A stretch of 64,000 nucleotides of DNA, taken from NCBI RefSeq assembly GCF_900112605.1, contig NZ_FOMJ01000001.1, positions 272,577 through 336,576 of the forward strand. Direction: 5' to 3'. Position numbers and translations under genes: made by a program. The notes under the pieces were generated by a model. The model saw only the letters and a list, made by a program, of their open reading frames with translations. It made no database searches and was not told where the DNA came from. Of this stretch, positions 7,384 through 42,694 are shown piece after piece (within the stretch, counting starts at the first letter, position 1; each line of letters opens with the position of its first letter). This stretch comes from Thiohalospira halophila DSM 15071 (GTDB lineage: Bacteria > Pseudomonadota > Gammaproteobacteria > Thiohalospirales > Thiohalospiraceae).

Positions 7384-7387
7384 GGCC

Positions 7388-10160: not shown

Positions 10161-11548
<1,388 letters not shown>

Positions 11549-11562
<14 letters not shown>

Positions 11563-16598: not shown

Positions 16599-16744
16599 TG
16601 TCTGACTGGGCGAAGATCGAGCAGAAATCATCTATTTGCACAATTTAATTACATCATGAAGGCGCTTCAGGAAGTAGTATAGCCCCACGTAGCAGTTGTG
16701 CGGTGCTCTCAGAGCTACTGCGAGCCCCGGAGAGAGGGTGTGAC

Positions 16745-18148: not shown

Positions 18149-18306
18149 GCGGGATTCGTCCAGTTGGCCCTCTCGGTCTGAGGGCGTTTTCGACAGACAG
18201 GGTGGTGGCCGGTAGGCAGCCCACACCGCTCGGCCGAATAATTCCATCGCCGCGCTGCGGGCGCATACAGGGCCGGGGACCATCCCCGGAGGAAGGAAGG
18301 AAGTCC

Positions 18307-18990: not shown

Positions 18991-19002
18991 GGAGGGCACG
19001 CG

Positions 19003-22632: not shown

Positions 22633-22640
22633 GGACAACC

Positions 22641-25441: not shown

Positions 25442-26457
25442 CGACCCGGAGTCGACGCGACCGCCTGGCCAGCTGGCTGGGGCGGACCGGCATGATGCGA
25501 CCTCTGGCCCGGCTCTGGCACGCCGGCCACGACGGGGTGGTGATCCTTGCCTACCACCGCGTGGTGGATACCGGTCCGGAGGCGGATTTCCCCTGGGACA
25601 TCGACCTGGTCAGCGCCTCGAGCACCGCCTTCGATCGCCAGATGGCCGAGATCCGGCGTCACTATCACCCGGTGGGGCTGGAGGAGGTCTGGCGGCGCTG
25701 GAGTCGGGGGCGCCGGCTGCCGCGGCGGGCGGTGGCGGTGACCTTCGATGACGGCTTCGCCGATAACGCTACCTGTGCACTGCCCATCCTGCGCCGCCAC
25801 GGGATCCCGGCCACGGTCTTCGTCAGCAGCGGCTATGTCGGTTCGCGGACCCCCTTCTGGTTCGACGGCCTCGCCCACTGGGTGAACACCACGCAGGCCG
25901 AACGGATGACCATCGCCGGCGAAGTCTGGTCGCTGACCTGCATGGACAGTCGCCGGCGGGCCGGCTGGGCCGCCCTGGGCCATCTCAAGCAGCTCGAGGA
26001 GCCCCGGCGCCAGGAACAGCTGGAGGCCTGGCGGACCGAGATCGGGGAGGACGACGAGCTCGATGAAGGCTCGCGCCCCCTCTCCCGGGTCGAGCTCCAG
26101 GCGCTGGTGGAGGGCGGGATCTCCATCGGCTCCCACACGGTGAGCCATCCGGTCCTCTCGCGGTGTGATGACGCCACCCTGAGGCGGGAGCTGACCCAGT
26201 CCCGGCATGACCTGGAGGCCATGACGGGAAGCCCGGTGACCACCCTGAGTTACCCCGTGGGCGGGGCCGATGCCCACGGTCACCGGGTCCGGGAAGCGGC
26301 GCGGGAGGCCGGTTACCGCCTGGCCTGTGCCTACGTGCCCGGATTCAATCGGCGCCGCACGGCGGATCGATTTGCGCTGCGGCGTCAGCGGATCGAGCGC
26401 TACATCGACCATGATCGATTTCGCGCCATGCTGGCCTGTCCGGAGGTGTTCAAGTGA
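25438..26457 (+). CDS. NodB-type polysaccharide deacetylase
   Basis: This 339-residue protein has the NodB fold. Motif 1 is AVTFDDGFADN (catalytic Asp and metal Asp), motif 2 is GSHTVSHPVLS (the H-x3-H metal histidines), and motif 3 is near LSYPVGG. The start region carries the VVILAYHRV strand common to deacetylases of capsule loci. It should remove N- or O-acetyl groups from the sugar polymer. The enzyme has no obvious signal peptide, so it may act on lipid-linked intermediates in the cytoplasm. It overlaps the genes on both sides by 4 nt. Confidence 0.87.
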   Translation: MTTRSRRDRLASWLGRTGMMRPLARLWHAGHDGVVILAYHRVVDTGPEADFPWDIDLVSASSTAFDRQMAEIRRHYHPVGLEEVWRRWSRGRRLPRRAVAVTFDDGFADNATCALPILRRHGIPATVFVSSGYVGSRTPFWFDGLAHWVNTTQAERMTIAGEVWSLTCMDSRRRAGWAALGHLKQLEEPRRQEQLEAWRTEIGEDDELDEGSRPLSRVELQALVEGGISIGSHTVSHPVLSRCDDATLRRELTQSRHDLEAMTGSPVTTLSYPVGGADAHGHRVREAAREAGYRLACAYVPGFNRRRTADRFALRRQRIERYIDHDRFRAMLACPEVFK

Positions 26458-27803
26458 ACCGCCCGACTTCCAGTGCCGTGGACGGCGCCTGGGTGCCCCG
26501 GCTGGCGCTGCTCCTGCAGACCGCGGTCTGGGCCCTGAGCCCCTTCCACTTCCTCATCGCCTACCTGGTGCTGCTGCTCATCCGTCCCCACGAGTTCCTG
26601 CCCGGGGTCCAGGGGCTGCCGCTGATGCCGGTGGTGATGATGGGGGCGGTGGCCGCCTGGATCCTGGCGCGGGAGAAGGATTTCGGCGCACCGGCCTTTG
26701 TCCTGCTGGTGGGGCTGGTCCTGGCCATGGTCGCCAGCCGGGTCGCCTTGGGCTGGCTCGGCGGGATCCCGGCAGTAATATCCGAGTTCTTGCCCATCCT
26801 CCTGATCTTCCTGCTGGTGGCCACGGTGGTCAGTACGCTGTCGCGCCAGCGGGTCTTCCTGGTGCTGCTCTTCGGTGCCTCCGTCTACATGTCGCTGCAC
26901 GGGATCCAGCAGCACCTGACCGGGACCGGCTGGACCGGGGCCGAGCTGCTGGCCGGGCGCATCCGCTATATCGGCTTCTTCCACGACCCCAATGACCTGG
27001 GCCTCTTCCTGGTCATGACCCTGCCCATGGCCTTCTTCCTCTTCGGGCGCAGCCGCAGCCCGGCGGTGCGGCTGCCCCTGGTGCTGGGAGTCGCCGTCGT
27101 CTTCTACGCCATCTATCTCACCGGATCCCGCGGGACGCTCCTGGCTACCCTGGCGGTCCTCGGGGTCTACTTCGCCCGCCGCTACGGCTGGACGGTGAGC
27201 GCCCTGCTCGCGGCACTGGTGCTACCCGTCCTCCTGCTGCTCCTGCCGAGCCGTTTCACGGACCTGGATCCGGGAGAGTCCTCGGCCCACGGCCGGGTGG
27301 AGGCCTGGTACAACGGCATGCAGATGTTTCAGAGCAATCCGCTCACCGGGGTGGGCTGGGGGCGGTTCACGGAGTTCAATCCGCTGACGGCGCACAACTC
27401 CCTCGTCCTGGTGCTGGCGGAGACCGGCCTGCTGGGACTGACCTTCTGGCTGGCCTTCTTCGGCGGCGTGGTCTGGCTGCTGTTCCGGGTGCTTGGCCAC
27501 TGGCAGCAGTACGGGGACGCCGTGGCGGACCCCGCGGGTCGCGAATGGGCGGATCTCGCCCGGGCGCTGCTCATCGCCTTCGTGGGGATCGGGGTCTCCG
27601 CCTTCTTCCTCAGTCGCAGTTACAACATCATCCTCTATCTGCTGGCCGCGGTGGCCGTCGGTGCCTTCCTGGGGTATCGGCGCAACAGGGGGCTGGAGGC
27701 GCCCGGTCCGGGGCGGGTGCTGGAGCGGGCGGCCCTGGGTGCGCTGGTCCTGGCGGCCGCCTTCTTTGTCGTCATCAAGGGTCTGCTGGGGGCGGCGTCA
27801 TGA
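26454..27803 (+). CDS. O-antigen polymerase/ligase-like membrane protein (Wzy/WaaL type)
   Basis: A 449-residue protein with about eleven membrane helices and a periplasmic loop holding the family signature. The Wzy_C segment (YLTGSRGTLLATLAVL) is followed by a loop with GVGWGRFTEFNPLTAHNSLVLVLAETGLLGL, whose HNS and glutamate are characteristic. The start RPHEFLPGVQGLPLMPVVM resembles the exosortase-A-associated O-glycosylation ligase family. In this setting it would polymerise repeat units or ligate them to an acceptor. It starts at GTG 26454, overlapping the previous stop. Confidence 0.85.
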   Translation: MNRPTSSAVDGAWVPRLALLLQTAVWALSPFHFLIAYLVLLLIRPHEFLPGVQGLPLMPVVMMGAVAAWILAREKDFGAPAFVLLVGLVLAMVASRVALGWLGGIPAVISEFLPILLIFLLVATVVSTLSRQRVFLVLLFGASVYMSLHGIQQHLTGTGWTGAELLAGRIRYIGFFHDPNDLGLFLVMTLPMAFFLFGRSRSPAVRLPLVLGVAVVFYAIYLTGSRGTLLATLAVLGVYFARRYGWTVSALLAALVLPVLLLLLPSRFTDLDPGESSAHGRVEAWYNGMQMFQSNPLTGVGWGRFTEFNPLTAHNSLVLVLAETGLLGLTFWLAFFGGVVWLLFRVLGHWQQYGDAVADPAGREWADLARALLIAFVGIGVSAFFLSRSYNIILYLLAAVAVGAFLGYRRNRGLEAPGPGRVLERAALGALVLAAAFFVVIKGLLGAAS

Positions 27804-29353
27804 GGGCGCCGGTCTCTCTGCTCCGGAATACGGCCTGGGCGACGGCGGGCCGGTATGTGGAGTACTTCCTCGGCATGGTGATGTCGGTGATGATTGCCCG
27901 GGCGCTGGGGCCGTCGGATTACGGCATCTATGCCTTCGCCATCTGGCTGAGCCACCTCTCCCTGTTGCTCATCAATGGCGGCCAGCCCACCGCGCTGATC
28001 AAGTTCCTGGCGGAACTGCGGGGCCGGGGAGACGAGGGGGCGGAGGGGGCGCTGTTCCGCCGGGTCAATCGGTTCCACCACTGGACCACGGGCCTCTTCC
28101 TGGCGCTGGGCAGCGGTATCATCGCGCTGGCGGGCGATTCCATCCTCCCCGGCGACGCACCGGGCGTACTGCTCTGGCTGGTCCTTCTGGCAACGGTCTT
28201 CAAGGCCTCCTACATGTTCCGGCAGGGGCTCGCGAAGGGGCGGGAAGACTTTCGTGCCATCGCCCTGACCATCCTGGTGGTCGCACCGGCCAATACGGTC
28301 GCGGTCGCCGTGGCCTCATCGGTGGGCGCCGGGCTGGCCGGTTTCCTGGCGGTCTTCACGGGGGCCGGCCTGGCCTACTTCCTGTTGCTGCGGGTATTCC
28401 TGGGCCGTCCCCCGATTCCCGATCCCGGCGCGCCGGAGCGGGTCGCCGCGCTCCGCCCGCGCCTGCATCGCCACATCCTCCTGGCAACGGCCAATACCCT
28501 GCTGGCCTTCCTGGTCTTCAAGCAGTCGGAGGTCCTCTTCCTGCGCCTGTTCGCGGAGACCAGCGCCATCGCCTACTTCAATGTGGCCTTCACGCTCTCC
28601 ACGGCGGCGGCGACGCTGGTGCCGGGGATCGTCGGCACCATTCTGCTGCCGGCCATGGCGCGGGCGGTGGCCCGGGATCAAGCGACGGCCGGGCGCACCT
28701 TCGTGGAGTCCACTCGGTACCTCTGGCTGCTGGGACTGCCGCTGATGGCGGGCGGGCTGCTCTATGCGGACAACCTCGTGGGGCTCCTCTACGGGGCCGA
28801 ATTCCGGGATGCCGCCGTCCCGCTGGCGGCGCTACTGGTTGCCAGCTCCTTCCACATCATCTCGCAGGGGGGCAGCAGCTATCAGATCAGCTCCGATCGG
28901 CAGCATGTCCTTCTGCGACTCAATCTCGTGCTGGTGGCGATCACCCTGGCCCTCGACTGGGTCCTCATCGCCAACTACGGCCTGACCGGGGCGGTGATCG
29001 CCTTCAGCACCACCACCATCGGGTCGTCGCTCTTCCTTATCGCGCTGACCTGTCGGGATCTGGGGGTCCGCCTCCCGCTGGGCATCGCCCTGCGGGCCAC
29101 GCTGGCCGGCGGCCTGGCCCTGGTCCTGGTCTGGCCCCTGGGCTGGGTTCTGGGCTCCGTCGCGGAACTCCTGGTGGGCGGGGTCCTGTTCGTCGCCATC
29201 TACCTGGTGGCAACCCTGCGCCTGCGCTGCTGGACGGCCACCGACCTGGCCACCGGGCACCGCCTGCTCAAGCGGCCGGGGATCCGGTGGCTGGTGCCGG
29301 GCGGTGCCTTCCTGCTGGACCGCGTCGGGGCACGCCCCGCTACTACGGAGTAG
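27800..29353 (+). CDS. Polysaccharide flippase (Wzx/MATE-like)
   Basis: A 517-residue protein with about 12-14 membrane helices. The opening LLRNTAWATAGRYVEYFLGMVMSVMIARALGPSDYGIYAFA is the typical polysaccharide biosynthesis (Wzx) N-terminus, and the later ETSAIAYFNVAFTLSTAAATLVPG is a conserved helix. It should move lipid-linked repeat units to the periplasmic side for the polymerase encoded just upstream. It overlaps that gene by 4 nt, and the next gene follows 3 nt after its stop. Confidence 0.9.
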   Translation: MRAPVSLLRNTAWATAGRYVEYFLGMVMSVMIARALGPSDYGIYAFAIWLSHLSLLLINGGQPTALIKFLAELRGRGDEGAEGALFRRVNRFHHWTTGLFLALGSGIIALAGDSILPGDAPGVLLWLVLLATVFKASYMFRQGLAKGREDFRAIALTILVVAPANTVAVAVASSVGAGLAGFLAVFTGAGLAYFLLLRVFLGRPPIPDPGAPERVAALRPRLHRHILLATANTLLAFLVFKQSEVLFLRLFAETSAIAYFNVAFTLSTAAATLVPGIVGTILLPAMARAVARDQATAGRTFVESTRYLWLLGLPLMAGGLLYADNLVGLLYGAEFRDAAVPLAALLVASSFHIISQGGSSYQISSDRQHVLLRLNLVLVAITLALDWVLIANYGLTGAVIAFSTTTIGSSLFLIALTCRDLGVRLPLGIALRATLAGGLALVLVWPLGWVLGSVAELLVGGVLFVAIYLVATLRLRCWTATDLATGHRLLKRPGIRWLVPGGAFLLDRVGARPATTE

Positions 29354-29356
29354 CCC

Positions 29357-30703
29357 ATGTACGAGACCCTCTTCCAGAAGGCACTGCTACCGCTCCGGGA
29401 CCGGCTCCGGGGTGGCAGAACCACGAACTACTGGCGGGAGTACGAGGCGCAGCAGTGGTGGTCGCCGCAGGAGCTGGCCGATCTCCAGTGGCAGAAGCTG
29501 CAGGTGCTGCTGGACCACTGCCAGCGCCGGGTCCCCTATTACCGCGAGACCTGGGCCGCCGCCGGGGTGGATGTCAACGACTTCACCGGTGTCGGCGATC
29601 TGCGCTTCCTGCCCACCGTGGACAAGGCGGCCATCCGCGAGAATCGCCAGGCCTTCATCGCCGAAGGGTGGGAGGACCGGGTGATGACCAAGAACACCGG
29701 GGGCTCCACCGGCGAACCGCTGCACTTCGGCTTCACCCGCGAGAGCGATGAGCGGCGGATGGCCGTGATGTTCCGCGGCTACGGCTGGGCCGGCGCCGCC
29801 CCGGGGCGGCGCGTAGCCTATCTCTGGGGGGCGCCGGTCGCGGAGCGTACCCGCCTGGCGCAATTGAAGGAGGCGGCCTTCCACCGCTTCTTCCATCGGC
29901 GCATGTTCGATACCAATCGACTGGACCCGGAGGTTCTGGAGTCCCTGCGTCGGCAGCTCCTGCGCTACCGGCCGCGGGCCATCGTCGGCTACGTGGCCCC
30001 CCTGCAGGCACTCGCCGACTACGCCCTGCGCCAGGGGCGGGAACTGCCGCGAGTGGATGGCGTCCTGGCTGCCGCCGAGCAGCTCTATTCCAGTCAGCGC
30101 GAACTCATCGAGGAGGCCTTCCGATCCCCGGTCTTCAATACCTACGGCTGCCGGGAATTCATGCTCATCGCCTCGGAGTGCGAGCACGGGCGCATGCACC
30201 TCAACAGCGACCACCTGGTGGTGGAGGCGGTGGACGAGGCCGGCCAGCCGGCCACTGAAGGCGGGGATCTCGCCATCATCGACCTGCACAACTTCGGCTT
30301 TCCCTTCGTGCGCTATCGCAATGGCGACCAGGGATTGCCCGGGGCCGCCGGCTGCCCCTGCGGACGCGGCCTCCCGGTACTGGACCGGCTGGACGGGCGC
30401 AGCCTGGACATCCTTCGGACCCCGTCCGGGGCCACCATTCCGGGTGAGTACTTCTTCAACGTCATGCGACCGGTGGAGGGGGTGCGCCGCTTCCAGGTGG
30501 TCCAGGAGGCGCTGGATCGCCTGGAGGTGCGCTACGTCCTGGGGCCGGAGTTCACCGCGGCCGATCAGGAGCAGATCGAGGCGGAGATCCGCCGGGTACT
30601 GAATGATGACGCCATGGAGGTGACCTACCGCGCCATGGACGAACTCCCGACTACCGCCAGCGGCAAGCTCCGGGTGACGCTCTCCCGGCTGGAGGAGACA
30701 TGA
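29357..30703 (+). CDS. CapK/PaaK-like adenylate-forming enzyme
   Basis: This 448-residue protein resembles phenylacetate-CoA ligases and their capsule relatives (CapK). It has the AMP-binding P-loop TKNTGGSTGEPL, the adenine-site region NTYGCREFM, and the RYRNGDQG and C-terminal GKLRVT segments. A small zinc-like knuckle (CPCGRG) is also present. In polysaccharide loci these enzymes are thought to activate a carboxylic acid for transfer to the sugar chain. The substrate here is unknown. The GNAT/FemAB-like transferase at 37.2 kb could use a group activated by it. Confidence 0.82.
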   Translation: MYETLFQKALLPLRDRLRGGRTTNYWREYEAQQWWSPQELADLQWQKLQVLLDHCQRRVPYYRETWAAAGVDVNDFTGVGDLRFLPTVDKAAIRENRQAFIAEGWEDRVMTKNTGGSTGEPLHFGFTRESDERRMAVMFRGYGWAGAAPGRRVAYLWGAPVAERTRLAQLKEAAFHRFFHRRMFDTNRLDPEVLESLRRQLLRYRPRAIVGYVAPLQALADYALRQGRELPRVDGVLAAAEQLYSSQRELIEEAFRSPVFNTYGCREFMLIASECEHGRMHLNSDHLVVEAVDEAGQPATEGGDLAIIDLHNFGFPFVRYRNGDQGLPGAAGCPCGRGLPVLDRLDGRSLDILRTPSGATIPGEYFFNVMRPVEGVRRFQVVQEALDRLEVRYVLGPEFTAADQEQIEAEIRRVLNDDAMEVTYRAMDELPTTASGKLRVTLSRLEET

Positions 30704-31809
30704 ACATCGTCCATGTTGTGGAGAATCTGGAGCGGGGCGGCCTGGAACGCATGGTCGTCGACCTCGCCACGGCGCAGCAGGCGGACGGCCATCGGGTCGC
30801 CATCGCGACGCTCTTTCAGCCGGGGCAGCTGGCCCCGGAGGCCGAGGCGGCCGGTGTGGTTGTCCATCCGGCGGGCAAGCGGCCGGGCCCGGATCTGCGC
30901 GCCCTGGGCGAACTGCGCCGGTTCTTCCGGTCGTGGCGGCCCGAGGTGATCCACAGCCACAATCCCATGCCCCACCAGTACGCAGTCGCCGCCTCCCCGG
31001 GGCGGCGAACCGGGCGCATCAATACCCGTCACGGCCTGGGGCAGGCGGCGGACAGCCGGCGCTCCCGCCGTCTCTTCCGGCTGGCCATGACGCGGACGGA
31101 CTTCGGCGTCGCGGTGTGCCGCGCGGCGCTGGATCAGTACGTCCGCAATGGCCTGATCCCGCCGCGCAAGGGGCGGGTAATCCACAACGGGATCCGGGTC
31201 GACCGCTTCCTGCCGCGGGATTCGCGCCGACGGGATGCCCTGCGTACCGAGCTGGGACTGGAGCCCGGCGGGCCGGTGGTGGGGACGGTGGGCCGGCTCA
31301 ATCCGGCCAAGGATCAGGGGCGGCTGGTGGCGGCCTTCTCCGGCATCCGCCAGCGCCATCCCGACGCCATCCTGGTGATCATCGGGGGCGGCCCCCTGGA
31401 GGCCGAACTCCGCCAGGATATCGCCAGGTCGGGCCTGGAGGCCGCCGTCTTCCTCCTGGGGGACAGCGACCATGTCCCGGAGTTGCTGGCCGGTTTCGAC
31501 CTCTTTGTCCTGCCCTCCCGGACCGAGGGCTATTCCATCGCCCTGCTGGAGGCGGCGGCGGCCCACCTGCCCGCCGTGGTCACCCGGGTCGGGGGGAACG
31601 CCGACATCGTCGCCGACGGCCTGCGGGGGCGGGTGGTGCCACCGGGGGATACGGCCGCCCTCACCACCGTGGTGAGCGAACTCCTCGCCGCGCCGGAACA
31701 TCGCCTGTTCATGGGGCAGAACGCCGGGAGCTGGGCGCGTGAGCATGCCTCCGTGGAGGCCATGGCCCACAGCTACGAGGCGCTCTACCGGGAGGCGGGG
31801 GCGAGATGA
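30700..31809 (+). CDS. Glycosyltransferase family 4
   Basis: A 369-residue GT-B enzyme. The N-terminal domain begins with HVVENLERGGLERMVVDLA, the form seen in exosortase-A-associated transferases. The C-terminal GT4 domain has the nucleotide-binding TVGRLNPAKDQGRLV stretch and the SRTEGYSIALLEAAA block with the E-x7-E acidic pair. It should add a sugar to the growing lipid-linked unit in the cytoplasm. Donor and linkage are not readable from sequence. It overlaps its neighbours by 4 nt on each side. Confidence 0.88.
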   Translation: MNIVHVVENLERGGLERMVVDLATAQQADGHRVAIATLFQPGQLAPEAEAAGVVVHPAGKRPGPDLRALGELRRFFRSWRPEVIHSHNPMPHQYAVAASPGRRTGRINTRHGLGQAADSRRSRRLFRLAMTRTDFGVAVCRAALDQYVRNGLIPPRKGRVIHNGIRVDRFLPRDSRRRDALRTELGLEPGGPVVGTVGRLNPAKDQGRLVAAFSGIRQRHPDAILVIIGGGPLEAELRQDIARSGLEAAVFLLGDSDHVPELLAGFDLFVLPSRTEGYSIALLEAAAAHLPAVVTRVGGNADIVADGLRGRVVPPGDTAALTTVVSELLAAPEHRLFMGQNAGSWAREHASVEAMAHSYEALYREAGAR

Positions 31810-32981
31810 ACGAGACCGTGATCCTGACCAATCTCTTCCCGACACCCTGGGAGCCGGGCCGCGGGACCTTCAATCTCCAGGCCTTTACCCATCTGGCCGG
31901 CCGTCGTCCGCTGCGCGTGATGGTGCCGGTGGAGTGGCCGACCTGGCTCCGGCGTCGACCCGCGCCGCCCCCCCTGCCCGCGGGGCTGGCCGGGCGGGTG
32001 GACTGGTTCCCCTACTGGTACCCGCCGCGGGTGGGACGTGCCCTCCACCCGCTCGGTCTCCTGGCCTCCCTCGCGGCCGCCCGGCCGGGCCGCCTGTTGC
32101 GCCGGCCCGCCGCGCTGCTGGCGAGCTGGGCCTATCCGGATGCCGTGGCCGGGGCCTGGCTGGCGGCCCTGTGGCGAGTGCCGCTGGTGGTGAAGGTCCA
32201 CGGCTCCGATCTCAACCTCATGGCCACCGGCGGCCTCCATCGGCCCCAGATCCGCTTCGCCCTGCGGCGGGCCGCCGGGGTACTGGCGGTGAGCGAGGCC
32301 CTGGCCGGGGAGGCGCGCAGCCTGGGGGCGGCACCGGACCGCATCCGGGTGATCTACAACGGCGTGGATACTGCCCGATTCCAGCCCGGCGATCGGCGCC
32401 AGGCGCGACAGGCCCTGGGGCTGGCTCCCGGTCGGCGAGTCCTGCTCTTCGTGGGCAACCTCAAGGACTCCAAGGGCTGCCAGGATCTCCTGGCGGCCTT
32501 CGCCAGGGTGGCGGCCGCTCAGCCCCGGGTCGATCTCCACTACGTGGGGAACGGGCCGGAGTCGGACTCGCTGGCCGACCGGGCCGCGAGCCTGGGAATC
32601 GGGGAGCGGGTCCATCTCCACGGGGGCCGGCCTCATACCGAGCTGGGTCAGTGGTTCAACGCCGCCAACTGGACGGCGCTCCCCAGCCATGCCGAGGGCG
32701 TTCCCAACTGCCTGCTGGAGTCCATGGCCTGCGGGACGCCGGTGGTTGCCTCCCGGGTCGGCGGGATCCCGGAGGTGGTTCCGGACGAGGCCGGGATCCT
32801 GCACCCGCCCCGGCGGGAGGAGGAGCTGGCGGCGGCCCTGGAGGAGGCCATGGGACGGCGCTGGGACCGGCCCCGCATCGCCAGCCACGCGGCCGGCTTC
32901 GACTGGGCGACCAATGCCCGCGAGACCGATGCCCTGCTGTCCCGGGCGACCGGAACAGGGGAGGAATTCCAGACATCATGA
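31806..32981 (+). CDS. Glycosyltransferase family 4
   Basis: A 391-residue GT-B enzyme of the GT4 family, distinct from the one before it. N-terminal TNLFPTPWEPGRGTFNLQ is typical of this branch. The C-terminal half has LLFVGNLKDSKGCQDLLAAFA and the PSHAEGVPNCLLESMACGTPVVAS block with its conserved glutamates. It probably adds one residue of the repeat unit. It overlaps the preceding GT4 gene by 4 nt and the following deacetylase by 4 nt. Confidence 0.88.
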   Translation: MNETVILTNLFPTPWEPGRGTFNLQAFTHLAGRRPLRVMVPVEWPTWLRRRPAPPPLPAGLAGRVDWFPYWYPPRVGRALHPLGLLASLAAARPGRLLRRPAALLASWAYPDAVAGAWLAALWRVPLVVKVHGSDLNLMATGGLHRPQIRFALRRAAGVLAVSEALAGEARSLGAAPDRIRVIYNGVDTARFQPGDRRQARQALGLAPGRRVLLFVGNLKDSKGCQDLLAAFARVAAAQPRVDLHYVGNGPESDSLADRAASLGIGERVHLHGGRPHTELGQWFNAANWTALPSHAEGVPNCLLESMACGTPVVASRVGGIPEVVPDEAGILHPPRREEELAAALEEAMGRRWDRPRIASHAAGFDWATNARETDALLSRATGTGEEFQTS

Positions 32982-33616
32982 AGACCCGACTGATCCAGGA
33001 ACTCAAGCGCCTGATCCGCGCCTGGCTCCTTCGCAGTACCCGCAACCGGCCCGAGGTGTATCTGACCTTCGACGACGGCCCCCATCCGGTGGGGACACCA
33101 GCGCTGCTCGACGTGTTGCGCCGCCACGAGGTCCCGGCGACCTTCTTCCTCATCGGGACGGCTGCCGAGCGCTTTCCGGATGCCGTGGATGCCATCGTGG
33201 CCGATGAGCACCTCATCGGGAATCACTCCCTGACCCACCGGCACTTCGGGCAATTGGGGAGTCTGGGCCAGTGGCGGCAGATGCGGGCGGCAGAACGGAT
33301 TCTGCGGCGTCACGACAGGCTTCGGGGACGACCGTTCCGGGCCCCTCAGGGGCGGTTCCGGCCCCTCTTCGGCCTCTGGCTCGCCCTGCGCGGACGGGGG
33401 CCGATCCACTGGTCCCTGGATAGCGGCGATGGCGGCTTCACCGACGTCGACGAACTGGTGGAGCACCTCCGGGAGCATCCACCGGGGCCGGGGGATGTGC
33501 TGCTCTTCCATGACGATAGTCCCGTCACGCCGCGGGCCCTGGAGCGGCTCCTGCCGGAGTGGAAGGCCGCCGGCCTGACCTTCGCCAGACTGCCGGGCTG
33601 GGAGGTCGGGCGATGA
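32978..33616 (+). CDS. NodB-type polysaccharide deacetylase (short)
   Basis: A 212-residue compact NodB domain. Motif 1 is VYLTFDDGPHP, motif 2 GNHSLTHRHFG with the two metal histidines, and motif 3 falls in PFRAPQGRFRP. The C-terminal LLFHDD block supplies the usual leucine-histidine pair. It is the second deacetylase of the operon; two such enzymes suggest a polymer rich in N-acetyl-amino sugars, consistent with the UDP-HexNAc dehydrogenase next door. No signal peptide is apparent. Start and stop both overlap neighbours by 4 nt. Confidence 0.87.
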   Translation: MKTRLIQELKRLIRAWLLRSTRNRPEVYLTFDDGPHPVGTPALLDVLRRHEVPATFFLIGTAAERFPDAVDAIVADEHLIGNHSLTHRHFGQLGSLGQWRQMRAAERILRRHDRLRGRPFRAPQGRFRPLFGLWLALRGRGPIHWSLDSGDGGFTDVDELVEHLREHPPGPGDVLLFHDDSPVTPRALERLLPEWKAAGLTFARLPGWEVGR

Positions 33617-34800
33617 GGATCCTCTATCACCACCGCACCCGCGGTCGCAGCGTGGAGGGCGTCCACATCCGCGGCATCGTCGAGGCCCTGCGCGCCATGG
33701 GCCACGAGGTGTCCATCCTCTCCTTCCCCGGGGCCGATCCGGAGGCCCCGGAGGAGCGGGCCGATCAGCGCCCCGGCCGGGCCCAGGCGGTGATCCGCTG
33801 GGTTACCACGCGCCTGCCGGAGTGGGCCTTCGAGGCGCTGGAGCTGGCCTACAACGCCTATACCTGGCCGCGACTCTCCCGCGCCGCCCGGCGCGACGGC
33901 GAATGGGATCTCATCTACGAGCGCTACTCCCTCTTCCTCTTTGCCACCGTGCTCTGGGCGCGGCGGCGGGGGATCCCCGTGGTGCTCGAGATCAACGACT
34001 CGGCGCTGCTCGAGCGGGTGCGACCGCTGTCCTGGCGCCGTCTGGCGCGCGCCATCGAGGGCCGCGTGCTGCGGGCGGCCAGCGGGCGAGTCTTCATCTC
34101 CCGTAATTTCCGGGAGACCGCCGAGGCCGCCTACGGTGACCTCTCCCCGGCGGTGATCTCCCCCAACGCGGCCGATGCCGCGGTCTTCTTCGACCCGGAC
34201 CGCTACGATCGCGAGGCCATCCGCGCGGAGTACGGCCTCGAGGGGCGCGTGGTGGCCGGTTACGTCGGTGCCTTCGTCGCCTGGCACGGGATCCAGCCCT
34301 TCGTGGAGGCCATCCTGCCCCGGCTCCGGGAGCGGCCCGAGCTGGTGCTGCTGCTGGTGGGGGACGGCGAACGCTACCCGGCCATCGCCGAGGCGGTGGA
34401 AGCGGCGGGTCTCGCCGATCAGGTACGGCTCACCGGACGGGTTCCCCATGCCGAGGTCCCGGCACTCATGGCGGCCATGGACTTCGCGGTACTCCCCGAC
34501 TCCAACACCTACGGCTCCCCCATGAAGGTCTTCGAGTTCATGGCCATGGGGCTGGGGGTGGTGGCGCCGGACTACGGGCCGCTCACGGAGGTCATCGGCG
34601 ACGGCGAGACCGGCTGGCTCTTCCCCGCGGGAGACATCCCGGCCGGCATGGAGCGGACCCTGGCCGTGGCCGGTGACGAGGCCGAGCAGCGCCGCGTGGG
34701 GGCGGCGGCAGCGGACTACATCCGCCGGGAACGGCAGTGGCGGGACAACGCCGCCCAGCTCCTGGCCCTGGTGCCCGGAGCGGGCGAGGAGGGGAGATGA
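33613..34800 (+). CDS. Glycosyltransferase family 4
   Basis: A 395-residue GT4 enzyme. The N-terminus reads RILYHHRTRGRSVEGVHIRGIVEAL, a form frequent in exosortase-associated loci. The donor-binding half shows VVAGYVGAFVAWHGIQPFVEA and then LPDSNTYGSPMKVFEFMAMGLGVVAPDYGP with the conserved SPMKxFEyMA block. It should act in repeat-unit assembly; sugar specificity is unknown. It starts inside the deacetylase stop and overlaps the following GT2 gene by 4 nt. Confidence 0.88.
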   Translation: MRILYHHRTRGRSVEGVHIRGIVEALRAMGHEVSILSFPGADPEAPEERADQRPGRAQAVIRWVTTRLPEWAFEALELAYNAYTWPRLSRAARRDGEWDLIYERYSLFLFATVLWARRRGIPVVLEINDSALLERVRPLSWRRLARAIEGRVLRAASGRVFISRNFRETAEAAYGDLSPAVISPNAADAAVFFDPDRYDREAIRAEYGLEGRVVAGYVGAFVAWHGIQPFVEAILPRLRERPELVLLLVGDGERYPAIAEAVEAAGLADQVRLTGRVPHAEVPALMAAMDFAVLPDSNTYGSPMKVFEFMAMGLGVVAPDYGPLTEVIGDGETGWLFPAGDIPAGMERTLAVAGDEAEQRRVGAAAADYIRRERQWRDNAAQLLALVPGAGEEGR

Positions 34801-35996
34801 TCGGACTGGAGCTACTCTTCTGGCTGGCGGTGGTGGGAGTGGTCTATACCTATGCCCTCTATCCCATCGTCCTCATCGTGGCCGCCACCGGGGGGCAGGT
34901 GGCCGGTGATCTGCGCTTCGTGACCGGCAAGGGGGAGCGTCGGACACCGGCGCTTCCGGCGGAGCCGCCGCCGGTGGCCGTGATCATCGCGGCCTTCAAC
35001 GAGGCCGGCTCCATCGGGCCCCGGCTCTACAACCTCCTGGCCCAGGCGTATCCCGGGGAACTCCGCATCCTCGTCGGGTCGGATGCCTCCGATGACGCCA
35101 CGGTGGCCGAGGCCCGGGCCGTGGCCGACCCCCGCATCGAGGTCATCGACTTCCGCGAGCGGCGGGGCAAGGCGGCGGTGCTCAATGATCTCGTCTCCCG
35201 GGTGGGGGAGGGGATCCTGATCCTGACCGATGCCAACACCCGCTTCGAGCCCCGGACCCTGGAGCAGCTGGTGCGCCACTTTGCCGACCCGGCCGTGGGC
35301 GTGGTCTGCGGGGAACTCCATCTCGAGGGGAATGACGGCAGCAATCAGGACGGCGTCTACTGGCGCTACGAGCAGGTCCTGAAGTTCTACGAGAGCCGTA
35401 TCGGGGGCCTTCTCGGGGCCAATGGCGCCGTCTACGCCCTGCACCATGACGCCTTCCGCGCCCTGCCGGCGGGGACCATCGTGGATGATTTCCATACCGC
35501 CATGGTCGCGGCGGAGGAGGGGTGGGGAGTGGTCTACGACCCCGAGGCGCGGGCGGTGGAGGAGACGCCGGAGGCGCTGGCCGATGAGTTCCGCCGCCGG
35601 ATCCGCATCGGGGTGGGGAACTGGCAGTCCTTCGCCCGCTTCGTCGGCATGCTCCATCCGCGCCACGGGGCGCGGGCCTTCACCTTCCTCTCCCACAAGG
35701 TGCTGCGCTGGCTGGTACCCCACCTGGCCCTGGTGGCGCTGGCGACCAGCATCGCCCTGGCCGTGAGCGGGGAGGGGCTCTACATCGGGATCCTGGTGCT
35801 CCAGATCCTCGGCTATGGCTGGGCGGTGGGTGGCTGGTTGTGGCTCGCCGCCGGCCGCCGCCTGCCGGGACTCGCCCGGGCACCCATCTCCCTGGCGGCC
35901 ATGAACGTGGCGCTCTTCCTGGGATTCCTGCGCTGGCTGGTCGGGGGCAGTGGCGGGGCGTGGAACCGGACCCGGCGCAATTCGGAGGCGACATGA
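34797..35996 (+). CDS. Glycosyltransferase family 2, membrane-bound
   Basis: A 399-residue GT2 enzyme with an N-terminal membrane helix, the GT-A domain and three C-terminal membrane helices. The GT-A domain shows AVIIAAFNEAGSIGPRL, the metal-binding region ILTDANTRFEP, and GANGAVYALHHDAF, with RRRIRIGVGNWQSF near the acceptor site. The layout is that of processive or membrane-associated transferases such as NodC/IcaA relatives. It may therefore elongate or add a single sugar at the membrane. It overlaps both neighbours by 4 nt. Confidence 0.87.
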   Translation: MIGLELLFWLAVVGVVYTYALYPIVLIVAATGGQVAGDLRFVTGKGERRTPALPAEPPPVAVIIAAFNEAGSIGPRLYNLLAQAYPGELRILVGSDASDDATVAEARAVADPRIEVIDFRERRGKAAVLNDLVSRVGEGILILTDANTRFEPRTLEQLVRHFADPAVGVVCGELHLEGNDGSNQDGVYWRYEQVLKFYESRIGGLLGANGAVYALHHDAFRALPAGTIVDDFHTAMVAAEEGWGVVYDPEARAVEETPEALADEFRRRIRIGVGNWQSFARFVGMLHPRHGARAFTFLSHKVLRWLVPHLALVALATSIALAVSGEGLYIGILVLQILGYGWAVGGWLWLAAGRRLPGLARAPISLAAMNVALFLGFLRWLVGGSGGAWNRTRRNSEAT

Positions 35997-37198
35997 TGGC
36001 GATCCTCATCGGCCTGCTCCTGGCGGCCCTCCTGCTGGCAGCCGGGGGTGTGGTGCTACTGGTGCGACGACGCAACATGCACCAGTGGCTGCCGGCCTAT
36101 CTCCGCCGGCGGCGCCCGCGCCACCGCGAGCCGGGGCCGGTGCACGTCCTCTTCTGCTTCGTGGATCACTTCGAGCCGCGCTGGGGCGGGGCGGATATCG
36201 AGACCGAGCGGGCCCGGGTGGCGCGCTGGTGCCGCGACTATCCCCGCCTGGCGGAAGGGCACCGCGATGCCGACGGTCGACCGCCCCAGCACACCTTCTT
36301 CTATCCCGAGGAGGAGTATCGCCGGGAGCACCTGGAGGCGCTGGTGGGGCTCTGCGCCGCCGGCTACGGGGAGATCGAGGTCCACCTTCACCACGATGAC
36401 GACACGGCCGAGAACCTGCGCCGGACCCTCAACGGCTTCGTGGAGACCCTGGATTCCGAGCACGGGGCGCTGCCGCGGGATCCGGCAACGGGCCACCCGG
36501 TCTACGCCTTCATCCACGGCAACTGGTGCCTGGACAACAGCCGGGCGGACGGCCGCTGGTGCGGCGTCAACAACGAGATCGACATCCTGCGGGAGACCGG
36601 CTGCTACGCCGATTTCACCCTGCCCTCGGCCCCCTCGGATACGCAGACGGCGCAGATCAACAGCCTCTACTACGCTACCGACGACCCCGATCGACCCAAG
36701 TCCCACGACCGCGGCGAACCGGTCCGCGTGGGCGGGCGGGCCAGCGGCGACCTGATGATCATCCAGGGTCCGCTGGGTCTCGCCTGGCACGACCGCAAGT
36801 GGGGCCTCATGCCGCGCATCGAGAATGCCGACCTGCGCCGCGCCTTCCCGCCCACCCCGGCGCGGGTGGACCAGTGGGTGCGCGAGGGCGTCCACGTGGA
36901 GGGGCGTCCGGAGTGGGTGGTGGTGAAGGTCCATACCCACGGCACCCAGGAGGGGGACATGGATACCCTGCTGGGGGAGCCGGTGGACCGGATGTTCGAG
37001 CACCTGGAGCGGGCCTACAACGATGGCGAGCGCTACCGCCTCCACTACGTCACCGCCCGGGAGTGCTACAACATCATCAAGGCCGCCGAGGCCGGGGAGA
37101 GCGGCGACCCCGGCGCGTTCCGCGACTACCGCCTCCCGCCGCCGCCCATGCGGGCCGGGAATGATGGAACGGAGGTGCGGGGCCATGTCGCCTCCTGA
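35993..37198 (+). CDS. Uncharacterised His-rich membrane-anchored protein, possible deacetylase/hydrolase
   Basis: A 401-residue protein I cannot place in a named family. Residues 1-25 are a membrane anchor. The rest contains a series of metal-type motifs: VLFCFVDHFEPRW, HTFFYPEEEYR, EVHLHHDDDTAEN, YAFIHGNWCLDNS and VKVHTHGTQEGDMD. The spacing of these Asp/His strands suggests a beta/alpha barrel related to NodB deacetylases or glycoside hydrolases, with a metal site; that is inference. Its operon position, between a GT2 and a GNAT-like transferase, supports a role in modifying or trimming the polysaccharide. The start is ATGATG at 35993. Confidence 0.6.
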   Translation: MMAILIGLLLAALLLAAGGVVLLVRRRNMHQWLPAYLRRRRPRHREPGPVHVLFCFVDHFEPRWGGADIETERARVARWCRDYPRLAEGHRDADGRPPQHTFFYPEEEYRREHLEALVGLCAAGYGEIEVHLHHDDDTAENLRRTLNGFVETLDSEHGALPRDPATGHPVYAFIHGNWCLDNSRADGRWCGVNNEIDILRETGCYADFTLPSAPSDTQTAQINSLYYATDDPDRPKSHDRGEPVRVGGRASGDLMIIQGPLGLAWHDRKWGLMPRIENADLRRAFPPTPARVDQWVREGVHVEGRPEWVVVKVHTHGTQEGDMDTLLGEPVDRMFEHLERAYNDGERYRLHYVTARECYNIIKAAEAGESGDPGAFRDYRLPPPPMRAGNDGTEVRGHVAS

Positions 37199-38360
37199 CA
37201 GTGCCGGCCGGACGGCAACGATGGCCGCCGAGGTGACCCTCCCCTGGCGCTGGCTGGACCCCTGGCGGGAGGCCGGGGAGGTGGAGACGGCCTGGCGGAG
37301 CCTGGAGGCGCGCTTTCACCCCCCCTGGTTCCTGCGCTGGGCCTGGGTGGAGAACTGGCTGGCCTGCCTGCCGCCGGGGCTCGACCTGCGGCTGGCCGTG
37401 GCCGGTTCGGTAACGGAGCCCGAGGCCGCCTTCTTCATCGGCCGCCGCCGACGCTGGCGCCACGGCCTCTTCCCGGTGCGGGAATGCCATCTCAATGCCA
37501 CCGGCTACCCGACCTACGATAACCTCTGGATCGAGTACAACGCCGTTCCCGGGCGCTCACTGGCCTGGTCCGAACTCCTGGCGGCCCTTCCCGCGGGCTG
37601 GGATGAATTCCACCTGCCCGGGCTGGACACGGCCGCCTTACCCGGCCATGCCCTGGCGACAGTGCCACCGGGCCTGATCGGGATCTCGCGCAAGGCGATT
37701 CCCTCTCCCCGGGTGGATCTGGAGGCGGTGCGGCGGCGCCAGGCCGAGGGAGGCGACTACCTCGATCTCCTCGGGCGGAATACCCGCAGCCAGATCCGGC
37801 GCTCCTGGCGGCTGGCCGAGGAGACCTGGGGCCCGCTCCGGCTGGAGGAGGCCGCCGATCCCGGGGAGGGCGCGGTCTTCCTGGACCGGTTGGCGGCCAT
37901 CCACCAGGAGAGCTGGCAGGAGCGAGGGGAGGCCGGGGTCTTCGGGGAGGAGTGGTTCCTCGATTTCCACCGGCGGCTGGTGGCGCGACACTTCGATGAC
38001 GGTATCCAGCTCCTGGCGCTGCGAGCCGGCGACCAGGAGCTGGGCTACCTCTACAACCTCGTTGCCAACGGCCGGGTGCTCTTCTACCAGTGCGGGATCC
38101 CGCGCCTGGAAGACAACCGCATCAAGCCGGGCCTCATGGCGCATGCCGCGGCCATCCGTCACAACGCGGCCCGGGGCGAGGCTCTCTACGACTTCCTCGG
38201 CGGCGATACCCGGTACAAGCAGAGCCTGGCCACCGGGGCCGCCTCCTCCTCGAACGACTCGGCCGACCTTGCCTGGTTCATCCTCCAGCGGCCCCGGCTC
38301 TCCCTGCGTGCGGAGGCGCTGGCCCGCTCCCTCAAGCGCCGCCTCTTCCCCTCCCGCTAG
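37185..38360 (+). CDS. FemAB/CelD-like GNAT acyltransferase
   Basis: A 391-residue protein resembling the Acetyltransf_6 (CelD/BcsL, FemAB-like) family found in exopolysaccharide loci. Visible blocks are FHPPWFLRWAWVENWL near the start, ARRRQAEGGDYLDLLGRNTRSQIRRSWRL-type helix in the middle, and the core GYLYNLVANGRVLFYQCG followed by EALYDFLGGDTRYKQSLATG. It should transfer an acyl or aminoacyl group to the sugar polymer. ATG 37185 follows GGAGG and overlaps the previous gene by 14 nt. It is the last gene of the tightly overlapped run. Confidence 0.8.
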   Translation: MSPPDSAGRTATMAAEVTLPWRWLDPWREAGEVETAWRSLEARFHPPWFLRWAWVENWLACLPPGLDLRLAVAGSVTEPEAAFFIGRRRRWRHGLFPVRECHLNATGYPTYDNLWIEYNAVPGRSLAWSELLAALPAGWDEFHLPGLDTAALPGHALATVPPGLIGISRKAIPSPRVDLEAVRRRQAEGGDYLDLLGRNTRSQIRRSWRLAEETWGPLRLEEAADPGEGAVFLDRLAAIHQESWQERGEAGVFGEEWFLDFHRRLVARHFDDGIQLLALRAGDQELGYLYNLVANGRVLFYQCGIPRLEDNRIKPGLMAHAAAIRHNAARGEALYDFLGGDTRYKQSLATGAASSSNDSADLAWFILQRPRLSLRAEALARSLKRRLFPSR

Positions 38361-38582: not shown

Positions 38583-40673
38583 ATGCGACAGAACAACCGG
38601 GGCTATGTACGCGGGACCACGGCGCTGGCGCTTCTCGCCGCGCTGGGGGTGTCCGGCTGCCAGGTCGAGGTAGCGGTCGACGGCGAGACGCTGGAGGGCG
38701 AGACCGTCGACGGGGATGGGACCGTAACCGTGACCGGAACGGAGGATACCACGACCTCGGATGGTACCGAGTCCGGTACCTCCGGGGATGACACCACGAC
38801 CTCCGATTCCGGTGGTACGGATTCCAGTACTTCGGATTCCACGAGTTCGGATTCCACGACTTCGGACTCGACCACCGACGACTCCACGGCCTCCACCGAC
38901 GACAGCACCAGCACCGCCGACGGCTCCACCACCGACGATAGCACCAGCAGCTCGACCGATGACGCCACCACGGCGGATGCGGTGGCGGTGACCTTCCACG
39001 GTCAGCCCGGGATCGGGGCCGCAGAGGATCGCTGGGTGGCCTTCGCCGTTCCCTTCCCGCAGGGTGCCCGTCAGGAAACCGCCGATCTCGCCCTTCAGGT
39101 GGGCGGGGCCGAGACCCCGGTGATGGCCGAGGTCGTCGCCAACTGGCCGGATGGCAGTGTGCGCTCCGTGCGCCTGTGGACGCAGGTGGCTATCGGGGCG
39201 GGGGAGACCGTCAGTGGTGAACTCGTGACGGGTGCCACTGATCCGGCTCGCCTGGACTCCGTCGGCGTCTCCGTGGCCGATACCTGGATCCCGATCAGCG
39301 AGTCCGGGGTCGACGAGTCGGAATATACCACCGCCGAGGTCATGGAGCCGGCGGTCTATACCACCCTGCCGGCGGAGTGGCTGGCCGGCATGACCCTGCG
39401 CACCGAGACGGTGCCGGTGGACGCGTGGAGCGACTCCGGCTGGTTCGACGAGGCGCTGCTGGGCTATTCGCGCACCATGGTCAACGACGTTTCCGACGCC
39501 GTGAGCGAGGAGGACCTGGTCAACTATGAGCCCGACACCTGGGGGGACACCGGTTCGGTGGACACCAGCTCCTGGCTCTTCGACCGCGCCTCCACCCTGT
39601 GGGGCGTCTACTTCCGGACCGGGGATGTGAAATGGCTGCGCCATGCCCACCGGGCCAGCCAGTACTACGCCCTGAACGTCGAGCGGGACAACGACACCAG
39701 CCCGTCGGATTCGGATAATCGCAACTTCCGGGGCCAGTTCCGGTTCAAGGACATCAACTACGTCGATCACAAGTACAGTTATGGTATGCCCATGCTGATG
39801 GACCGGCTGGTCCTGGGCGCGGCGGTTGATGGCCCCGCCGCCGGGGAAGACGGGGTGCGGGCGGTCTCCGACCTCGTTACCAATGGCTACTGGGAGGGCA
39901 CCTACGGTAGTGACGGTGCCTACAATCCCGACCTCGGGGCCAACCACCTCTGGACGGAGCGCCACCAGGCCTATGCCTTTGCCGCTCATCTCACGGCCTG
40001 GGAGTACACCGGCGACGCCGCCTACCGCGACAAGCTGGACGACTACGTGGCGCAGATGGTCGACCACGTCGCCAATCCGCCCGGGGGCTACGCCGCCGAC
40101 GGCTGTCTGGTCCACGACTTCAAGCACCACGAGTGGAACAAGTACAACGACACGCCGACCCCGGTCTGCTCTCCGTGGATGACGGCGCTGCTGGCGGAGC
40201 CGCTGTGGCGCTACCACCGCCTCACCGGCGATGACCGGGCGCTGGGCCTGCTGGCCGATTTCGCGGAATCGGTGGCGCAGGACGGGACCTACATCGCCCA
40301 GGACGAGAGCAGCAACGTCGGCACCAGTTCCACCCTGTGGGACGCCCGGCTGCCGCAATATCTCTACTCCAGCAGCTATAACGGGGTGTCCGAGGGGGTC
40401 AGCGACCCCTGGCAGGACTGGGAGCACGCCTGCGATGTGGCGGGTCTGGTGGAGCGCGGGGTCACCGCCGGGGAGATGCTCGACCGCGACATGGCGGCCG
40501 AGCAGACCGTGGCCGATGACCTTATGGCCACCTGCGAGACCAACCTGGACAAGTGGTACCGTCCCGGTGATGACTCCTACGTCTCCCAGTACGGTCCGGA
40601 ATGGCGTCTGACGCCGGCGCGCAAGTACAACTGGTGGTTCGGTACCACCCTGGACCTGCCGCGGCTGCGCTAG
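38583..40673 (+). CDS. Large lipoprotein with Ser/Thr/Asp-rich linker, lyase/glycosidase-like (paralogue 1)
   Basis: A 696-residue lipoprotein with acceptor C26 in VSGC. Residues of about 45-135 form a low-complexity linker of Thr, Ser and Asp (TTSDGTESGTSGDDTTTSD). Next comes a beta-rich region (VAFAVPFPQGA...WPDGSVRSVRLWTQ) of the kind seen at the front of RIFT-barrel/PcRGLX-like polysaccharide enzymes. A ~430-residue helical region follows (RASQYYAL, WTERHQAYAFAAHLTAWEYTGD) that recalls an alpha/alpha toroid. I infer a surface polysaccharide lyase or hydrolase acting on the locus polymer; no function is proven. ATG 38583 follows GGGGA. The convergent gene downstream is a close paralogue. 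Confidence 0.65.
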   Translation: MRQNNRGYVRGTTALALLAALGVSGCQVEVAVDGETLEGETVDGDGTVTVTGTEDTTTSDGTESGTSGDDTTTSDSGGTDSSTSDSTSSDSTTSDSTTDDSTASTDDSTSTADGSTTDDSTSSSTDDATTADAVAVTFHGQPGIGAAEDRWVAFAVPFPQGARQETADLALQVGGAETPVMAEVVANWPDGSVRSVRLWTQVAIGAGETVSGELVTGATDPARLDSVGVSVADTWIPISESGVDESEYTTAEVMEPAVYTTLPAEWLAGMTLRTETVPVDAWSDSGWFDEALLGYSRTMVNDVSDAVSEEDLVNYEPDTWGDTGSVDTSSWLFDRASTLWGVYFRTGDVKWLRHAHRASQYYALNVERDNDTSPSDSDNRNFRGQFRFKDINYVDHKYSYGMPMLMDRLVLGAAVDGPAAGEDGVRAVSDLVTNGYWEGTYGSDGAYNPDLGANHLWTERHQAYAFAAHLTAWEYTGDAAYRDKLDDYVAQMVDHVANPPGGYAADGCLVHDFKHHEWNKYNDTPTPVCSPWMTALLAEPLWRYHRLTGDDRALGLLADFAESVAQDGTYIAQDESSNVGTSSTLWDARLPQYLYSSSYNGVSEGVSDPWQDWEHACDVAGLVERGVTAGEMLDRDMAAEQTVADDLMATCETNLDKWYRPGDDSYVSQYGPEWRLTPARKYNWWFGTTLDLPRLR

Positions 40674-42190
40674 GACTGCCGGACTCGGCCAATAGCCGTG
40701 AGGAGAAAGAAAGGGCCCCCGCCTTCCAGGTCGGGGGCCCTTTTCTGGTTGGTCTCATGGCCCTGGTGGGGTGGCCCGCCGGTTCAGTGCTGGAGATCGT
40801 GGAGCCAGGGCAGATCGAGCGTCGTCCCGAACCACCAGTTGTACTTGCGGGTGGGGGTCAGGCGCCACTCGGGGCCATTCTGTGCGAGATAGCTATCGTT
40901 GCCCGGGCGACGCCAGTTGTCGAGATTGGTTCGGCAACTCGCCATCATCTCGTCGGCAACCACCCTTTCACGGCTCATGTCGCGCTCCAGGAGCCGGCCG
41001 GCGACTACGCCCCGATAGAGCAGGCCGGAGACATCACAGGTATGTTCCCAGTCGCCCCAGGGGTCGCTGACCCCTTCATCCACTCCATTGTACTCGCTGG
41101 AGTAAAGGTACTGCGGCAGCCGCGCATCCCACAGGCCCGAGCTGGTGCCGACGTCGCTGCTCTCGTCCTGGGCGATGTAGGTGCCGTGCTCGGCTACCGA
41201 CTCGGAGAAGTCGGCGAGGAGGCCCAGGGCGCGCCGGTCCTGGGTGAGTCGATAGTAGCGCCACAGCGGCTCCGCCAGCAGCGCCGTCATCCACGGAGAG
41301 CAGACCGGGGTCGGCGTGTCGTTGTACTTGTTCCACTCATGGTGCTTGAAGTCGTGGACCAGACAGCCATCGGCGGCGTAGCCCCCGGGCGGATTGGCGA
41401 CGTGGTCGACCATCTGCGCCACGTAGTCGTCCAGCTTGTCGCGGTAGGCGGCGTCGCCGGTGTACTCCCAGGCGGTGAGGTGGGCCGAGAAGGCATAGGC
41501 CTGGTGGCGCTCCGTCCAGAGATGGTTGGATGCAAGGCCCGGGTTGTAGGCCGCCGAGTCGCCGTAGGTACCTTCCCAGTACCCGTCCGTGATGAGGTCC
41601 GAGACGGCCCGCACCGCATCCTCGGCCCGGGAGGGTCCGGCCTCGGGGGCACCGGCCACCAGCCGGTCCAGCAGCATGGGCAGGCCGTAGCTGTACTTGT
41701 GATCCGGGTAATCGACATCCTTGAACCGGAACTGGCCGCGGAAGTTGCGATCACTGGAATCGCTGGGGTTGGTATCGTTGTCCCGCTCGATGTTCAGGGC
41801 GTAGTACTGGCTGGCCCGATGGGCATGGCGCAGCCACTTCACGTCGCCGGTCCGGAAGTAGACCCCCCACAGGGTGGAGGCGCGGTCGAAGAGCCAGGAG
41901 CTGGTGTCCACCGAACCGGTGTCGGCCCAGGTATCCGGCTCGTAGTTGACCAGGTCCCCCTCGCTCACGGCGTCGGAGACGTCGTTGACCATGGTGCGGG
42001 AATAGCCCAGCAGCGCCTCGTCGAACCACTCCGATTCACTCCACTGGTCCACGGGGACGGTCCGGGTGCGCAGGGTCGTTTTGGAGAGCCAGGCCGCCGG
42101 GAGGGTGGCGTAGACCGCCGGCTCCATGATCTCGGCGGTGGTGTATTCCGCCTCGTCCACGCCGGATTCCGTGATGGGGATCCAGGTCGA
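39279..42190. repeat. Inverted duplication: two ~1.4-kb arms in convergent paralogues
   Basis: The region encoding about 460 C-terminal residues is duplicated in inverse orientation, roughly 39279-40670 and 40790-42190. It is separated by about 115 bp that hold a terminator. A 220-bp segment compared directly (40005-40220 against the complement of 41270-41470) differs at only two positions, both silent. The N-terminal thirds of the two genes are much less alike. Confidence 0.85.
40710..40744. terminator. Bidirectional terminator between the convergent lipoprotein genes
   Basis: AAAGGGCCCCCG (40710-40721) pairs with CGGGGGCCCTTT (40732-40743) around a 10-nt loop, followed by TTTT. The A- and T-rich flanks let it work in both directions between the paralogues ending at 40673 (+) and 40784 (-). 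Confidence 0.88.
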
Positions 42191-42694
42191 GGCGGCCTCG
42201 ATACCGGTGCCCAGCTCCTTGTCCCGCGGCCCACCCCAGCGCAACTCCAGGGTCAGCGATTCACGGCTGGAGAAGCGCGCATTCAGGGAGACGCGAACCG
42301 ACCGGATACTGCTCGGCTCACCGGTGTCCGGGTCCCACCAATGGCCAATGGCCCTGGTACGGATGGGGATCTCGCCCTGATTGTCGTGCAGGGAGACCGA
42401 ATCCGCATCGGTTAGCCAGCCCTGCGGGAAGGGGACGGCGAAGACGACGCCCGTGCCGGTATCCGTTGAGACGGCCTGCTGGGGATGGAGAGTGACCACC
42501 ACCCGGCCCTCGTAGCCGTCGGTGTCGTAACGAAAGGCATCGCTGTCGGGGTCCAGCTCGCTGTCGTTCAGCGGGGTGCCCCCATCGGAGCTGGTGGTAT
42601 CCGTGGTCGCCCGGAGTTCCTCGTTACAGCCGGGGAGGGTGAAGGCCAGCATGGCGGCCAGCGCCAGGAGCGTGGGGGAAGGGGGGTACCGCAT
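40784..42694 (-). CDS. Large lipoprotein, lyase/glycosidase-like (paralogue 2)
   Basis: A 636-residue lipoprotein, with acceptor C23 in LPGC. Its mature chain has the same order as the convergent gene: a short D/S/T-rich linker (~residues 27-65), a beta-rich segment (VVFAVPFPQGW), and a long helical region nearly identical to paralogue 1. For example, YRDKLDDYVAQMVDHVA and the KYNDTPTPVCSPWMTA stretch are unchanged. The linker is much shorter, about 30 instead of 90 residues. The same role, degrading or processing surface polysaccharide, is inferred. ATG 42694 follows GGAGGACAACC. Confidence 0.65.
   Translation of the reverse strand: MRYPPSPTLLALAAMLAFTLPGCNEELRATTDTTSSDGGTPLNDSELDPDSDAFRYDTDGYEGRVVVTLHPQQAVSTDTGTGVVFAVPFPQGWLTDADSVSLHDNQGEIPIRTRAIGHWWDPDTGEPSSIRSVRVSLNARFSSRESLTLELRWGGPRDKELGTGIEAASTWIPITESGVDEAEYTTAEIMEPAVYATLPAAWLSKTTLRTRTVPVDQWSESEWFDEALLGYSRTMVNDVSDAVSEGDLVNYEPDTWADTGSVDTSSWLFDRASTLWGVYFRTGDVKWLRHAHRASQYYALNIERDNDTNPSDSSDRNFRGQFRFKDVDYPDHKYSYGLPMLLDRLVAGAPEAGPSRAEDAVRAVSDLITDGYWEGTYGDSAAYNPGLASNHLWTERHQAYAFSAHLTAWEYTGDAAYRDKLDDYVAQMVDHVANPPGGYAADGCLVHDFKHHEWNKYNDTPTPVCSPWMTALLAEPLWRYYRLTQDRRALGLLADFSESVAEHGTYIAQDESSDVGTSSGLWDARLPQYLYSSEYNGVDEGVSDPWGDWEHTCDVSGLLYRGVVAGRLLERDMSRERVVADEMMASCRTNLDNWRRPGNDSYLAQNGPEWRLTPTRKYNWWFGTTLDLPWLHDLQH

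Follow-up and report, generated by a model that had tools for sequence, protein, structure and literature searches.

How two adjacent genes of opposite orientation can be closely alike in one domain and widely diverged in the rest is the question raised by the locus described here, which lies in a 64,000-nucleotide stretch of Thiohalospira halophila DSM 15071 (the window). An earlier note on this DNA had proposed that the pair arose by inverted duplication not long ago, or that gene conversion is continuing within the catalytic-looking domain only, and the two genes and their surroundings were therefore analyzed with respect to silent-site identity, gene content and occurrence of homologues.

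Two convergent genes form an inverted repeat next to an exopolysaccharide locus

The genes, the arms of the repeat and the adjacent elements are as follows (positions refer to the window):

38583..40673, + strand: gene A, an open reading frame for a predicted lipoprotein with lipobox GVSGC, a long Ser/Thr/Asp-rich linker, a PcRGLX-type N-terminal barrel and a C-terminal domain (arm 1)
40784..42694, - strand: gene B, an open reading frame for a predicted lipoprotein with lipobox TLPGC, a short linker, a borderline PcRGLX-type barrel and a C-terminal domain (arm 2)
39282..40666, + strand: left arm of the inverted repeat, the C-terminal domain of A (ungapped alignment)
40803..42187, - strand: right arm of the inverted repeat, the C-terminal domain of B (ungapped alignment)
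~40708..40747, no strand assigned: predicted bidirectional intrinsic terminator, a hairpin in the 110-bp spacer with T-rich tails on both sides
16703..38360, + strand: XrtA-type exopolysaccharide locus, directly upstream of gene A

Genes A and B are convergent paralogues separated by a 110-bp spacer, and their last 467 codons align in register with zero gaps at 81% nucleotide and 83% amino acid identity, a homology far above chance in which the longest exact match between the arms is 104 bp. The inverted repeat of convergent paralogues that had been reported is thus present (39282-40666 and 40803-42187), but its description as near-identical, with about 460 residues almost unchanged, was overstated, considering the above values and a nucleotide identity of 71.5% over the last 450 bp. 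A genome search identified A and B as the sole copies, adjacent and with no third, so that each is the only in-genome template of the other and a partner gene able to act as donor for gene conversion is present in the same genome. The spacer hairpin (folding energies of -33.7 kcal/mol on the + strand and -30.5 kcal/mol on the - strand), with terminator-like sites and T-rich tails on both strands, agrees with the bidirectional terminator previously read there and is predicted to stop transcription in either direction.

The predicted signal peptides of both genes contain a lipobox and Cys with no Asp at +2 (A ...GVSGC-Q, B ...TLPGC-N, as read from the sequence), by which both products are predicted to be outer-membrane lipoproteins, in line with the surface lipoproteins proposed earlier; the N-termini are lipobox-like in both (VSGC and LPGC).

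The pair directly follows the XrtA-type locus, and hence does lie at the end of a polysaccharide locus as the earlier note had stated. This locus contains genes for an EpsB-like transferase, export, Wzz, a kinase, an ATPase, deacetylases, Wzy-like and Wzx proteins, together with CoA-ligase-like, glycosyltransferase and GNAT genes. Within 16703-38360, TIGR03013, TIGR03027 and TIGR03007 scored over their cut-offs, and TIGR03018 and TIGR03015 below them (XrtA/PEP-CTERM-type); despite these genes, an exosortase (PF09721) was not found in the genome. A V/A-type ATPase gene set (subunits I, A, B and D) is located at 5168-12154, upstream of the exopolysaccharide locus.

Silent-site identity along the arms is a mosaic

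The comparison along the arms was restricted to codons at which A and B encode the same amino acid, and protein conservation is thereby excluded as a cause of any mosaic. Identical codons then amounted to 50 of 68 at 39270-39545, 22/23 at 39546-39620, 61 of the 95 at 39621-39995, 65/67 at 39996-40214 and 50 of 107 at 40215-40670, so that a tract of high silent identity is flanked by two segments of lower identity, as is expected of conversion, and the segment-wise profile is a mosaic rather than one of uniform divergence. The boundaries of the tracts below, and the second tract as such, come from post hoc segmentation:

39996..40214, + strand: tract in A attributed to recent conversion (219 bp, 2 silent differences)
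41255..41473, - strand: partner of this tract in B, in the same ungapped register
39546..39620, + strand: putative further short tract in A (75 bp, 98.7% nucleotide identity; two-state segmentation)
41849..41923, - strand: counterpart in B of this putative tract, in ungapped register

Across the 219-bp tract A and B differ at just two positions (GAC/GAT and CAC/CAT), each of them silent, which recovers at 39996-40214 the 220-bp stretch with two silent changes noticed before, and identity is 72-78% in the flanks on both sides. A stretch of 67 codons is the longest to contain no more than two silent differences, as compared to a mean of 23 and a maximum of 46-47 in 20,000 shuffles (p=5e-5), and the same p value was obtained when shuffling was performed within each amino acid. 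When the main tract was removed, the next-longest run was marginal (p=0.05); silent identity among the remaining segments, which had been chosen from the data, varied beyond expectation (chi-square p=1e-5), and a second conversion tract at 39546-39620 is suggested.

The opposite situation prevails in the last 450 bp of the arms, where the silent match was 0.47 as against approximately 0.49 predicted by independent draws from local codon usage. Silent sites at the C-terminal end are therefore at codon-usage saturation, which indicates that the duplication is old. The pair thus very probably represents an old inverted duplication in which a recent gene-conversion tract was laid down within the conserved domain. 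The recent inverted duplication offered by the earlier note finds no support in these silent sites; as to its second proposal, conversion itself stands, its extent being limited to the 219-bp tract, perhaps the 75-bp tract and older patches instead of the whole domain, and 'continuing' gives way to one clear recent event.

Homology ends sharply in front of the shared domain

The edge of homology at ~39270 is sharp. Upstream of it the N-terminal barrels of A and B are 29-31% identical, which bears out the divergence of N-terminal parts and linkers reported earlier; this value (0.31) is barely higher than that of either copy to the outgroup homologue L014 (21-26%). In the arms, A-B identity is 77-100% as opposed to 34-52% to L014, and among the relatives found none is closer to either copy than the other copy. 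This contrast may reflect replacement or rapid evolution of the N-terminal module in one of the two, or else a conversion at an early stage that was larger and covered the C-terminal domain. In gene A, the Ser/Thr/Asp-rich linker (38805-38969) contains degenerate tandem repeats of 15, 18, 21 and 36 bp, and gene B is without most of this linker.

Alternative explanations of the mosaic

An old duplication without any conversion would account for the mosaic if the tract were just the part of the protein under the strongest constraint, or if RNA, DNA or antisense coding functions kept its silent sites fixed. Ten of the 73 tract residues are indeed family-invariant, above the arm average, and long antisense open reading frames overlap both arms; nevertheless, only same-residue codons were compared and shuffles within residues still gave p=5e-5, while the antisense frames extend over almost the full length of the arms, taking in most of the saturated segment, and are of a kind common in a window of 70% GC. 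Constraint alone was rejected on this silent-site evidence, and we regard it as very unlikely.

The sequence comes from a draft assembly in 23 contigs, and a collapse or chimera between the repeats could in principle mimic conversion. Such an artefact is highly improbable, seeing that exact matches do not exceed 104 bp, that the pair lies deep inside an 815-kb contig, and that a misjoin between the inverted repeats would turn the inner segment around and not yield a tract flanked by 72-78% identity.

A recent inverted duplication, with N-termini diverging fast under selection and no conversion, would fit the restriction of the homology to one adjacent pair absent from 94 relatives, as well as the finding that A and B are closest to each other among the relatives found. 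It is hard to credit, because the saturation of the C-terminal 450 bp (0.47 versus 0.49) is unlike what would be expected next to a near-intact 219-bp tract, and recent duplication alone was rejected as contradicted by the silent-site profile. Least probable is an inversion switch, in which recombination within the tract would turn the inner segment around, so that A and B exchange their C-terminal parts, a notion that is compatible with conversion and suits the inverted geometry, the in-frame ungapped register and the 104-bp exact core, but of which one configuration is seen (in a single assembly) and whose flipping alone would not give patchy identity.

Returning to old duplication with recent conversion, the following history is proposed. 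A gene for an exopolysaccharide-linked lipoprotein would have undergone an old inverted (convergent) duplication, after which both copies would have diverged, most of all in the linker and the N-terminal barrel. Gene conversion, that is, short non-reciprocal recombination that is presumably RecA-dependent, would then have copied patches of the C-terminal domain between the opposed arms, the latest event being the 219-bp tract and perhaps preceded by older ones. The outcome would be different N-terminal modules on outer-membrane-anchored glycan-active enzymes or binders that may act on the cell's own exopolysaccharide. The mosaic of silent identity, the saturated flank, the presence of just two copies, the linkage to exopolysaccharide genes here and in other genomes, and a like sharing of one domain in a remote relative (G604, below) are observations; in this history we infer the direction of copying, the recombination machinery, the enzymatic activity and the benefit.

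Distribution of homologues and a tandem pair in a remote relative

Homologues of A and B were found in none of 94 other genomes of the neighbourhood and, with two profiles, in none of a 369-genome class sample, and no close relatives occurred in genome contigs, viral contigs, plasmids or phages. Distant homologues are present in 5/398 other genomes of a phylum-wide sample and in 13 of the 148 genomes of one family, the nearest being 36% identical; a second genome with an orthologous A/B pair was not found in any sample searched (neighbourhood, class, phylum, family and contigs). Among the distant homologues, L018 adjoins genes for glycosyltransferases, Wzx, Wzy and an acyltransferase, L016 adjoins a polysaccharide deacetylase gene, and the neighbours of L014 that were examined gave no family match. 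The family is sparsely distributed, occurs in exopolysaccharide loci of distant gammaproteobacteria and is poorly described; a literature search on it in such loci found nothing on point.

In a remote relative (G604, L025:8860-12521) a tandem pair carries a 363-residue C-terminal domain that is identical at the protein level, with 3/1089 nucleotides differing, behind different N-termini and proline-alanine linkers of unlike length. The G604 pair is a further recent example, separate from A and B, of neighbouring genes that share one domain but differ in their N-termini; a fresh duplication, and not conversion, may be responsible there. Another genome (G965:C1:1688404-1706028) contains two oppositely oriented homologues (L030 and L039) with ~15 kb between them; one of the two is part of a 1258-residue open frame.

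Predicted function of the protein family

The profile PF19501 (PcRGLX_1st), which represents the N-terminal RIFT barrel of a Penicillium rhamnogalacturonan exolyase (PcRGLX-like family, Pfam), matched gene A with 34.6 bits (E=1.7e-8, cut-off 22.1) and was borderline in gene B, with 21.3 bits, just under the cut-off of 22.1, and 22.4 bits as a genome hit. Further PcRGLX domain models gave no match in A or B at E<=1, and the GH127 profile PF07944 gave none over its cut-off in either. It did match homologue L014 (~36% identity) over the cut-off (E=2.3e-7) and L015 weakly, the best stretch in both covering part of the profile only (49-174 of 376). The C-terminal half appeared mostly helical in a structure model of low confidence (pLDDT 38.8), whose quality is insufficient for use; sequence searches of the PDB with A and B returned no meaningful relative, and PHROGs and NCBIfam no usable family for either.

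The PcRGLX-type barrel, together with the GH127 match in L014, suggests that A and B are glycan-active enzymes or binders. The proteins are most likely anchored in the outer membrane, and on balance it is somewhat more probable than not that they act on the cell's own exopolysaccharide, a role supported by the polysaccharide-gene neighbours of L018 and L016. That recurrent homogenisation limited to the domain, or arm inversion, maintains one catalytic module under varied N-terminal modules, an arrangement also present in the G604 tandem pair, is a doubtful proposition; if true, it would imply a surface system of two specificities acting on the cell's own exopolysaccharide.

Comparison with known systems

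High synonymous and non-synonymous identity of paralogues within a genome has been used by others as the argument for conversion, both in a phylogenomic survey of long-lasting gene conversion and concerted evolution in prokaryotes (PMC6053082) and for the rRNA operons of E. coli (PMC8022953). Gene conversion between bacterial paralogues is thus well known, and A and B are a further instance of this process, their tract sharing the high silent identity. They differ from the known cases in being homogenised only in patches of one domain and not over the whole gene, and conversion is seen here within one genome. The pair illustrates cleanly how conversion can act in patches on inverted paralogues of a bacterium, a saturated background lying beside a near-intact tract.

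As regards the PcRGLX-like family (PL26 of CAZy), the likeness consists of the N-terminal barrel, for which A scores over the Pfam cut-off and B is borderline. Unlike these lyases, A and B show no match to the remainder of the enzyme, the C-terminal half resembles the GH127 profile in two homologues, and they are situated in an exopolysaccharide biosynthesis locus instead of a pectin-use locus. The likeness to the GH127 (beta-L-arabinofuranosidase-like) catalytic domain, PF07944, is carried by the match in L014 and the weak match in L015, whereas A and B themselves are without a match and the homologues cover a partial profile. The locus also points to a poorly described surface-protein family that travels with exopolysaccharide gene clusters, and in which two unrelated genomes place the same C-terminal domain under different N-termini.
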